Assembly (NCBI GenBank): GCA_903854795.1
Contig: CAINXF010000132.1
Span: 1-12,401 of the forward strand
From: Candidatus Kerfeldbacteria bacterium
Lineage (GTDB): Bacteria > Patescibacteriota > Patescibacteriia > SBBC01
DNA length: 12,401 bases
Reading direction: 5' to 3'
The notes under the pieces are model-generated. The model ran no database searches. It had not been told where the DNA came from and saw only the letters and a list, made by a program, of their open reading frames with translations. This document shows positions 2,751 through 6,942 of this stretch, piece by piece (the stretch's first letter is position 1; every line of letters starts with the position of its first letter). The translations under genes and the position numbers were made by a program.

Positions 2751-2757
2751 CATGGTT

Positions 2758-3549
2758 ATGAAGCAGCCAAAGGTTGGCATCATCGGCTACGGCATGGTCG
2801 GCAAGGCGGTGGGTGCTTGGTTCAAGAACGCAGCGATTTACAGCCTGCATCAATATGCAGACGGAATAGAAAAAGTGAACCAGTCGGATGTAATATTTCT
2901 GACCGTCCCAACGCCCTACAACGCAAAGACCGGATATGACCTTTCCGCGCTCGAGGATGCCACGAAGAAGATCACCGGTAGGAAGATCGTTGTTCTGAAG
3001 TCGACAGTCCTCCCGGGCACCACTATCGATCTGCAACGACGTTATCCGAAGCATACTTGGTTGTTCAACCCCGAGTTTCTCCGTGACAAGACGAACATAT
3101 GGGACTTCCTTCACGCCGACCGACAAATCGTCGGCATGGCGCGGAACACTGCGGCACACCGAAAGGCAGCGAAGCTCGTCATGCGCATGCTTCCCAAAGC
3201 GCCATACGAGGCGATCACGACATCGACCGAGGCGGAGGTGATCAAGCTCGGCGCAAACTGTTTCCTGGCCACGAAGGTCGTGTTCTCGAACATGCTTTTC
3301 GACCTTTGTGTGCGTCTTGGCGCTGATTACGAGGCGGTACGCGGCGGTGTAGGTAATGACCCGAGGATCACCACGAGCATGACTAAAGTGCTCCAGGACG
3401 GGTATCGTGGTTATAGCGGAAAATGCTTCCCGAAAGATATGGGAGCGCTCATATGGTACGGTAAGAAGACGAAGCATCCGTTCCCGCTACTTAAAGTCGC
3501 GGATTCGATCAACTGGAAACTACTGCCGAAGAAGTATCGTCAACGTTGA
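2758..3549 (+). CDS. Miniature UDP-glucose/GDP-mannose dehydrogenase-like protein lacking the C-terminal nucleotide-sugar domain
   Basis: This 263-residue protein matches the first two domains of the UDP-glucose 6-dehydrogenase family. It has an NAD-binding Rossmann motif GYGMVG (10-15), VPTP (50-53), STVLPGT (82-88), NPEFLR (104-109), the catalytic-type lysine K163 in EVIKLGAN, and the catalytic-type cysteine C223 in GKCFPKD. Full-length family members run about 390-450 residues and end in a UDP-sugar-binding domain. This one stops about 40 residues after the cysteine and is also short between the Rossmann motif and VPTP. The retained K and C suggest an active oxidoreductase, but the substrate cannot be assigned. 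The next gene starts 3 nt after its stop and is unrelated, so no separate C-terminal domain follows. An in-frame ATG at 2752 is the alternative start. Confidence 0.82.
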   Translation: MKQPKVGIIGYGMVGKAVGAWFKNAAIYSLHQYADGIEKVNQSDVIFLTVPTPYNAKTGYDLSALEDATKKITGRKIVVLKSTVLPGTTIDLQRRYPKHTWLFNPEFLRDKTNIWDFLHADRQIVGMARNTAAHRKAAKLVMRMLPKAPYEAITTSTEAEVIKLGANCFLATKVVFSNMLFDLCVRLGADYEAVRGGVGNDPRITTSMTKVLQDGYRGYSGKCFPKDMGALIWYGKKTKHPFPLLKVADSINWKLLPKKYRQR

Positions 3550-4051: not shown

Positions 4052-4083
4052 AAAAAAAGGATGGCCGCGAGGCCATCCTTTTT
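4052..4083. terminator. Bidirectional intrinsic terminator with GNRA tetraloop
   Basis: A perfect 13-bp stem (4054-4066 with 4071-4083) has a GC core GGATGGCC and a GCGA loop, which fits GNRA. A-runs on one side and T-runs on the other give a U-tract on both strands. It sits between convergent genes ending at 4038 (+) and 4095 (-), so it can stop transcription from both. Confidence 0.93.
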
Positions 4084-4094
4084 AATCGATATAG

Positions 4095-4856
4095 TTACTG
4101 TGCGAAGACCGTGTCGTGGTACTGCCAGAACTTGCCTTGTGCGCTCGCACATTCTGATCCTTCCGCAAGTTGTTGCGCGTACGGGTGGATCGAGGTGAGC
4201 GGGAAGTGACGGTAGATCAAGGCGACCGTGTCGGGATACGCCGTCAGTGCCTGCTGGACGGACGCGTTGAATTGTTTGCAGTAGGGACACTGGAAGTCGG
4301 AGTATTCGATCATGTAGACCTTCGGTTTCGTCGCTCCGATCACATGGTCGTCCTTCGAGACGGCCGGTACGTTCGCGGTTCCCTTTGTGCCCGCCAGTGC
4401 CGCATCGATCGCGGTCTTGAGTTGGGCGTAGGGAAGTGCGCCGGAGATCTCAGTGCCGTTCACGAAGGTGGTTGGTGTACCTTGTACGCCCGCGGTGGTA
4501 CCGCTGCTAGTGTCGTTCGTGATGACCGACGAGTACGTTCCTGCAGTGAGACATGACTGAAACTTCGTCATATCAATGCCATTGATCGTGCTCGCGATAC
4601 GTACTGGGTCATAGAGCGTCGCATCGGCGGCTGACGTGTCAGTGTTCGTATTGGTCGTATCCGCGGCGACCGTATTCGTGTTCTTCTTCGAGCTTGTGAA
4701 CCCTCCGTCATGCACGGCGACGATCACGAGCGCGACGATGGCCATGAAGGCGAGCCCTGCTGAGAGGCCGAAGGCGAACGTCAGCTTCTGCGGGTCCTGA
4801 AAAAACGATTTGCCGCCGTTGCTTGACGACTCCGAGGTGCTCTTTTGTGTTTCCAT
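4095..4856 (-). CDS. Membrane-anchored DsbA-like thioredoxin-fold protein with circularly permuted domain order
   Basis: This 253-residue protein has a polar cytoplasmic tail (1-24), one hydrophobic anchor (about 25-48) and a Thr/Asn-rich linker (about 52-80). Next comes what is normally the C-terminal half of a DsbA/BdbD-like domain: helix ending FQSCL (C102), GVQGTPTTF with cis-proline P128, and the final helix ALPYAQLKTAIDAAL (140-154). Only then comes the normal N-terminal half: DDHVIGA lead-in (169-175), YMIEYSDFQ, active site C190-P-Y-C193, YRHFPL (215-220), SECA (C236) and GKFWQYHD. The protein ends at FAQ in the helical insert. Known family role: thiol-disulfide exchange on proteins outside the cytoplasmic membrane. 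The order swap is visible in the sequence; retained activity is inferred. The ATG at 4856 is chosen because the alternative TTG at 4883 would lie only about 8 nt from the predicted transcript start. Neither start has a Shine-Dalgarno sequence. Confidence 0.88.
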   Translation of the reverse strand: METQKSTSESSSNGGKSFFQDPQKLTFAFGLSAGLAFMAIVALVIVAVHDGGFTSSKKNTNTVAADTTNTNTDTSAADATLYDPVRIASTINGIDMTKFQSCLTAGTYSSVITNDTSSGTTAGVQGTPTTFVNGTEISGALPYAQLKTAIDAALAGTKGTANVPAVSKDDHVIGATKPKVYMIEYSDFQCPYCKQFNASVQQALTAYPDTVALIYRHFPLTSIHPYAQQLAEGSECASAQGKFWQYHDTVFAQ

Positions 4857-4897
4857 AGGTGGGCATTCAAAGATAATATTCAACTACGAACTGTAGA

Positions 4898-6462: not shown

Positions 6463-6942
6463 ATGAGCGAACAACCACGCCAACGACCGAACGAAGAGGC
6501 GATCCCGTACGTGCCGCGGCCCGAACAGACCGAACGCCGAGGTTCCAAGGAGTCGTTCATATATATGTTCCGTGATCTGTTGGAAGGTTTCCAGGACATG
6601 CCTGAGGAGCATATGCGGCCGGAGGATTACACATCGAAAGCCGATGAAGGAAATACCGTCAAAATGGACCGCGCACTGGCGCTCCGACGTAACAAGAGGA
6701 ACGTCGCGTGGTTTTCGGCGGTGACCTCGTCGGCGGAATTGGTGACGAACTTCTTTACGTTCGACGATGCAACGAGACAACAGATCGACGAGCTTTCCAC
6801 CTCACTCAGGACGAGCGTCGATGCGAAGGAGCTGACCACCGACGCAATGGTGAGCATGGGTGATACGGTCTGTCACTTGGTGATCCAAGCACTCGAGAGG
6901 TTACCGGACGATGGTTCAGCCGTACAAGGAGGCGCCGTATGA
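6463..6942 (+). CDS. Unrecognised soluble protein encoded between pheS and pheT
   Basis: I do not recognise this 159-residue protein. The first 30 residues are polar and rich in Pro, Arg, Glu and Gln and are probably disordered. Residues 31-60 include a Phe/Met/Glu-rich stretch (FIYMFRDLLEGFQDMPEEHM), and the remainder is predicted helical by eye, with VAWFSAVTSSAELVTNFF (80-97) as the most hydrophobic part. It is too short and too broken by polar residues to be a confident membrane span. No catalytic motif or signal peptide is visible. It starts 4 nt after pheS, has no Shine-Dalgarno sequence (context ATATG), and its stop overlaps the pheT start as ATGA. Its end carries the pheT ribosome-binding site. 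Codon use matches the neighbours. Co-translation suggests, but does not prove, a link to tRNA-Phe charging. Confidence 0.82.
   Translation: MSEQPRQRPNEEAIPYVPRPEQTERRGSKESFIYMFRDLLEGFQDMPEEHMRPEDYTSKADEGNTVKMDRALALRRNKRNVAWFSAVTSSAELVTNFFTFDDATRQQIDELSTSLRTSVDAKELTTDAMVSMGDTVCHLVIQALERLPDDGSAVQGGAV
6925..6932 (+). promoter_or_regulatory. Ribosome-binding site of pheT inside the upstream gene
   Basis: AAGGAGG (6926-6932) lies 6 nt before the ATG at 6939. CAAGGAGGCGCC (6925-6936) encodes Gln-Gly-Gly-Ala at the end of the upstream protein and differs by one base from the pheS cassette. Confidence 0.9.

Follow-up and report, generated by a model that had tools for sequence, protein, structure and literature searches.

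The window, meaning the whole 12,401-nucleotide stretch of Candidatus Kerfeldbacteria DNA analysed here, carries on its minus strand a single uninterrupted open frame (4095-4883) that, read from the ATG at 4856 to the stop codon at 4097-4095, encodes a protein of 253 residues. On the evidence of this frame, its Pfam matches and homologues of the same order, the whole gene (4095-4856; all of its parts lie on the same strand) encodes a membrane-anchored, circularly permuted DsbA-like protein. At the N-terminus a hydrophobic helix, the putative membrane anchor (residues 22-50, 4707-4793; hydrophobic by sequence and helical over 22-50 in an AlphaFold2 model), is followed by a flexible, low-complexity linker rich in Thr, Asn and Ala (residues 51-80, 4617-4706; pLDDT block means of 45, 50 and 61) and then by the cis-proline half of the domain (residues 81-154, 4395-4616), which holds elements H4, H5, H6, b4, b5 and H7, carries GVQGTPTTF and ALPYAQLKTAIDAAL, and is the C-terminal half in normal order. 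A 16-residue linker that connects the former C- and N-termini (residues 155-170, 4347-4394; placed from the alignment of permuted sequences and the model) and the lead-in DDHVIGA bring the chain to the CPYC half (residues 171-253, 4098-4346), which holds b1, b2, H1, b3, H2 and H3, is the N-terminal half in normal order, and ends in FAQ with the stop codon directly after it. Both halves were delimited from phmmer alignments and AlphaFold2 elements, the CPYC half also from Pfam, and the element names are our own assignment.

The catalytic motif CPYC (Cys190 and Cys193, 4278-4289) reads CPFC in 27 and CPYC in 19 of the 46 permuted proteins collected in this study, and the cis-proline motif Thr127-Pro128 (4473-4478) is TP in all 46. 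Cys102 in helix H5 (4551-4553) and Cys236 in helix H2 (4149-4151), partners of a predicted structural disulfide, likewise have equivalents in all 46. The initial annotation had given the span as 4095-4616, which is right for the catalytic domain plus the stop codon and falls short of the whole gene by the anchor and the linker behind it. Just 3' of the stop codon lies an A/T-flanked hairpin (4053-4083), read from the sequence and absent from the output of a consensus scan, which is a possible bidirectional terminator common to the convergent NUDIX gene. Elsewhere in the window, 2752-3549 encodes a 265-residue protein resembling UDP-glucose/GDP-mannose dehydrogenases, in which Pfam recognises only the central domain and part of the NAD-binding domain, and 6463-6942, between PheS and PheT, is a 159-residue open frame without a Pfam match; two other genomes of the window's family have a similar frame at the same place (32-35% identity).

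Pfam Thioredoxin_4 (PF13462; 91.6 bits, cut-off 23.2) and DSBA (PF01323; 69 bits, cut-off 25.6) each match the protein in two separate stretches, and when phmmer was run against solved structures the stretches came out reversed; for 4pwo, query 175-260 corresponds to chain 65-151 and query 87-164 to chain 162-239. A profile built from nine permuted proteins likewise aligned to solved DsbA in two stretches in most top rows. Because the halves match separately and their order is common to homologues, the reversal is not a matter of chance, and the reading that the cis-proline half precedes the CPYC half within one frame, made at first from the letters alone, is borne out. A search that depends on the order of elements can report such an enzyme as two incomplete matches. 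The protein has the CxxC at the N-terminus of H1 and the cis-Pro loop of the DsbA/Thioredoxin_4 family (CPYC and GTP, by sequence), and a thioredoxin core with an inserted helical bundle, all elements of which are in the AlphaFold2 model; the Glu conserved before the CxxC motif is replaced in three of the 46 permuted proteins. The family order is b1-b2-H1-b3-H2..H6-b4-b5-H7 and the order found is H4-H5-H6-b4-b5-H7-b1-b2-H1-b3-H2-H3, which makes the protein a permuted relative of the family and not a standard member.

AlphaFold2, given an alignment of 25 sequences consisting of permuted rows only, predicts the domain of the window protein at pLDDT 93-98 in ten-residue blocks (overall mean 86.8, pTM 0.69). 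Each DsbA element occurs once in the model, the old termini are joined, and the new ends lie between H3 and H4, in agreement with the original view of one nearly complete domain with new termini in the helical region. When the model was compared by Foldseek with 350,542 PDB chains, 167 matches were obtained at E<=10, and the sole match at E<=0.001 was 1UN2 (E 3.1e-4, 194 columns, rmsd 5.7 A, with moderate TM scores of 0.43 by query and 0.56 by target), which is entitled crystal structure of circularly permuted CPDSBA_Q100T99. Among the best 50 of the 167 matches, only 1UN2 was aligned over more than 130 columns at an rmsd below 8 A, and the normal DsbA-type rows aligned about half of the domain, or more at an rmsd above 8 A. 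The prediction that the initial annotation had called for thus gives one confident DsbA domain from both halves, and its best match among solved structures, over the whole chain, is a known permutant. When E. coli DsbA is aligned with normal-order relatives, residues 99/100 come directly behind the counterpart of ..HDxLF and ahead of H4; by our count, which assumes a signal peptide of 19 residues, the 99/100 cut lies between LFEGVQKT and QTIRS, in the loop between H3 and H4.

Four of the five genomes of the window's family, its own included, have a gene of the same order, and the fifth (80% complete) gave no match. The three other homologues are colinear, full length and 57-62% identical to the window protein, and at all four loci the gene is flanked on one side by UvrD, from which one or two short genes separate it, and on the other by a small hydrophobic open frame, PheS, PheT and GyrB. 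The window sits in a 211-contig assembly, but since three of the four other family genomes carry the colinear homologue in the same neighbourhood, and the order is common to 46 distinct proteins, it is practically excluded that the swapped order is a product of assembly, made by misjoining two pieces of a DsbA gene that is really normal or tandem. The other two points raised at the outset, whether homologues share the order (they do, in the family, the class and the phylum) and whether the locus is misassembled, were both settled in favour of a natural gene. The gene is also under purifying selection: dN/dS was 0.04-0.13 in the ten of 12 pairs with finite dS, being 0.11-0.13 within the window's family (four of six pairs with finite dS, dS being near saturation) and 0.04-0.10 in family f134, where four permuted proteins that are closer to each other give six pairs.

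The permuted gene is widespread in the window's phylum, Patescibacteria; the initial annotation had anticipated neither this spread, nor the probable recurrence, nor the conserved cysteine pair on either side of the cut. Even draws of genomes gave a DsbA-like match in 364 of 380 genomes of the class, with a verified permuted gene in at least 22, and in 319 of 379 genomes of the phylum, with a verified permuted gene in at least 26; six genomes are counted in both draws, and both counts are lower bounds (at most 30 loci were read per search, and there are further colinear-looking matches, e.g. G720, G649 and G661). Colinear matches with an internal stop (G329, G178, G359, G148, G095, G098) proved to be two adjacent normal genes and were excluded from the counts. 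A contig scan not confined to the phylum, in which the best 80 of at least 539 relatives and five loci of the window's own genome were read (85 loci), had the permuted order in single-domain proteins at six loci, the window included. Deduplication left 141 single-domain proteins with both halves, 46 of them permuted and 95 normal, the latter reduced to 94 when the fragmentary row L133 was dropped. The 46 comprise 42 from the phylum-confined searches (42 genomes, 19 numbered families) and four contigs of the unconfined scan (L009 from Microgenomates, L010 from Amesbacteria, L007 and L011); L006 was found by both. As a narrow outside control, judged by match positions, seven of 61 Chloroflexota genomes had a match at E<=1e-30, none of them spanning both halves (12 match rows, none starting before query position 124).

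In ten of the 26 permuted genomes of the phylum draw the model has no match besides the permuted gene (G423, G466, G525, G581, G685, G692, G594, G623, G547 and G713, the last with six of its seven candidates scored), and four of these genomes (G594, G623, G547, G713) are listed as 100% complete. The window's own genome also has normal-order DsbA-like proteins, so that the main oxidase there could be one of these. One other frame of that genome, 885 residues long, contains a divergent DsbA-like domain (G000:C109:1907-2476), and a 391-residue normal-order DsbA-like protein with a C-terminal extension and without the structural cysteine pair lies beside a weak VKOR match (G000:C163:3852-4418 and 2431-2727).

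That the gene is the decaying remnant of a tandem two-domain DsbA, which kept its inner C-half and N-half and is an enzyme no longer, is very improbable. Tandem DsbA-domain proteins do exist elsewhere, mostly in Myxococcota/Deltaproteobacteria records, and tandem DsbA genes occur in this class, but the CxxC and Thr-Pro motifs are kept without exception, the dN/dS values and the confident fold are those given above, and decay sits badly with a gene that is the sole match in so many genomes. We hold instead, with considerable confidence, that the gene product is a functional thiol:disulfide oxidase of the DsbA/BdbD kind, tethered to the membrane and with a catalytic domain that nature has circularly permuted; the oxidase activity itself is inferred.

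The likely partner of such an oxidase is a VKOR-type membrane protein, which would re-oxidise it. The window's genome has two VKOR-family matches, both weak (28.9 and 24.4 bits, cut-off 27.5, one being below it), and no match to DsbB, and VKOR was not recognised within the 12.4-kb window itself. At four of eight f134 loci (L158, L163, L165, L166) a VKOR frame, delimited from stop to stop, begins no more than 30 nt downstream on the same strand, identified by Pfam for L165 and by similarity to L165 for the other three, and at two of three f8 loci (L137, L138) the permuted DsbA is followed by a normal DsbA and then VKOR. VKOR is thus adjacent at no fewer than six of the 46 permuted loci, a minimum because the flanks covered were about 1.2-1.5 kb for the majority of loci, reaching about 5 kb in a few.

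The second cysteine pair bears on where the chain was opened. The 94 normal-order proteins have both cysteines (81) or neither (13) and never one alone, as expected of a disulfide. The presence of the pair in every permuted protein is by itself weak evidence, since both cysteines are the commoner state in the normal proteins too, the rows are related and the query had both. The geometry is stronger evidence: all 46 cuts, as read from the ends of the sequences, fall between the two cysteines, in 36 before H4 and in ten after it (L006, L120-L124, L126, L128, L129, L159), so that a bond, should it form, would link the new ends to each other. For the second class of cut AlphaFold2 is also confident (L124, mean pLDDT 90.6); this model has an extra short helix (59-65) before H5, though H4 is also at the C-terminus, and the helix may be a remnant of a duplicated H4.

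In the arrangement that we propose for the window protein, the short linker would join the old termini, and the break in the chain would lie between H3 and H4 of the helical insert. The membrane tether would then enter through the helical domain, and the active site may, as suggested in the initial annotation, be presented differently relative to the anchor. The fold and the active site (CPYC, the Thr-Pro loop and the conserved Glu before the motif) would be rebuilt from the swapped halves, and a Cys102-Cys236 bond between H5, which now lies close to the N-terminus of the domain, and H2, which now lies close to its C-terminus, would close the domain across the cut. We think it quite unlikely that the halves are instead exchanged between two chains, in a domain-swapped dimer with an active site drawn from two molecules, under which the permuted order would stand all the same. 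The junction linker of the window protein has only about 16 residues, and its sequence fits packing within and between chains alike, but the AlphaFold2 monomer is a complete and confident domain, and the engineered permutant of the same order, 1UN2, was according to its title crystallised with its global fold preserved.

As to how one chain came to have this order, tandem duplication of the domain behind the anchor followed by loss of the outer halves, already suggested in the initial annotation, is a plausible route, and it may have been taken more than once in this phylum. No protein of the intermediate type (N-C-N-C) was found among the loci fetched from the phylum; single proteins with three to five tandem DsbA-like domains (NCNC...) occur in Myxococcota/Myxococcales (L012, L015, L032, L034), Deltaproteobacteria (L027), Omnitrophota (L008) and others. 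Tandem arrays of three normal-order DsbA-like genes were seen at L125, L136 and L141 in this class and at L084 in a Parcubacteria record, and would be a ready substrate for rearrangement by duplication and deletion. A normal-order ancestor at the UvrD-PheS locus was absent from six f2 and f3 stretches, the DsbA-like genes of which are in other neighbourhoods. A normal-order protein of a sister family (G009:C37) matches the anchor region of the window protein (query residues 14-75, E 3.8e-7), with weaker matches in G005, G006 and G008, and this shared anchor sequence suits rearrangement behind a retained anchor. For nine of the 46 permuted proteins (halves about 34-66% identical in the rows for those nine) we asked which normal proteins stand closest to either half. 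In L130 and L135 the two halves agreed (L173, with L169 or L134), and in the window's family they pointed to different proteins, a low-resolution comparison that bears on fusion of two paralogues.

To place the permuted proteins among the normal ones, we built trees with the halves in one common order (about 160 columns). The quick tree of 140 rows (46 permuted and 94 normal) needs 14 changes of label, and holding the 46 permuted rows as one clade costs 164 log-likelihood units (p-AU 1e-5), by which a single permutation event for all 46 is rejected; more than one change of order is thus probable. A second, careful tree (112 rows) omitted the long branch L003 and the rows from Acidobacteriota, Chloroflexota, Cyanobacteriota, Myxococcota, Pseudomonadota and Binatota, and kept two archaeal rows (L044, L056) and rows of bacteria without a named phylum. 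It has 13 label changes, at least seven of them forced by well-supported branches, and none of 200 bootstrap trees had just one, with the qualification that label changes on a tree cannot alone separate gain from reversal. The two permuted types within f64 are rejected as one clade (p-AU 4.9e-6). The length of the cis-Pro loop, a separate marker, is short in some and long in others of both the permuted and the normal proteins (L163 and L165 having the long loop, by sequence).

We therefore regard at least two origins of the permuted order as likely and more as possible. It is rather unlikely that permutation occurred once, early in the phylum, and that the scatter comes from later reversal, gene loss, transfer or poor tree resolution. 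A single origin gains from the short alignment, from the starred branches of the quick tree, which force only two changes, and from the fact that the window's family, f11, f36 and part of f64 fit as one clade (p-AU 0.446, not rejected), to which L007, L009, L010 and L150 can be added with a borderline result (p-AU 0.072). It has against it the rejection of the whole set and of the f64 types as clades, the forced changes of the careful tree and the occurrence of both loop lengths in both orders, and each reversal would require another full permutation.

By holding the helical domain shut after the chain is cut, such a disulfide would make the domain tolerant of permutation. We give about an even chance to the wider proposal that in Patescibacteria the DsbA domain has been permuted several times independently, with the cut always inside the loop bounded by a pre-existing disulfide that made it permutation-tolerant, and that there are lineages with no DsbA but the permutant, which there works as one unit of two genes with VKOR, a protein related to DsbB by permutation in its turn. 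If true, nature would have permuted this domain repeatedly, and a structural cause could be named. The occurrence of homologues in either order, with two or more places of cutting and with a cysteine pair that spans the cut and is kept or missing as a unit, bears on how often, by which steps and under what structural conditions folds are reordered in nature, and the combination of VKOR with one DsbA suggests how bacteria with small genomes may organise disulfide formation.

Compared with solved relatives of normal order (BdbD 3eu3, C. diphtheriae 4pwo and P. aeruginosa DsbA2 4n30), the window protein likewise has the CxxC, the Thr-Pro loop, the thioredoxin core with its helical insert and every element, but its two halves are reversed and its anchor feeds the helical domain and not strand b1. 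Circular permutations among thioredoxin-like proteins are said to relate remote families by structure. In those cases (Qi and Grishin 2005, cited in PMC3091736, which includes circular permutations among thioredoxin-like folds) the fold tolerates reordering as it does here; unlike them, the proteins of differing order described here are homologues with halves about 34-66% identical (nine permuted proteins). VKOR and DsbB have been proposed to be circular-permutation relatives through gene duplication and deletion (PMC4555120); they are membrane helical bundles, whereas here it is the soluble partner enzyme that is permuted, probably repeatedly. In M. tuberculosis DsbA (Rv2969c) a second disulfide, Cys140-Cys192, is described as linking H2 and H5 (PMC3792642), and Cys236 and Cys102 are likewise in helices assigned as H2 and H5 (compared by helix, not residue); that protein is predicted to be membrane-tethered (PMC3853704) and interacts with VKOR-derived peptides (PMC3792642), but is described as having a canonical DsbA-like fold in normal order, and the window protein is permuted.

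Engineered DsbA permutants are described in PMC2395249 (1A2J/100) and PMC3281007 and cited in the reference lists of PMC2213659 and PMC12667903. In the literature searched, so far as the texts were available, the swapped order is described only in such laboratory-made versions and no natural DsbA permutant was found, which is weak evidence because few subscription journals were covered. The closest comparison is 1UN2 (engineered E. coli DsbA Q100T99), which has the same chain order as the window domain and is cut in the same H3-H4 loop where that domain starts and ends. It has no second cysteine pair, the E. coli DsbA sequence having two catalytic cysteines only, and presumably no membrane anchor; it is artificial, and the window gene is natural. 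Circular permutation of E. coli DsbA is a classic laboratory folding test, and in this real, conserved and natural permutant evolution has made the same rearrangement with the same loop cut.
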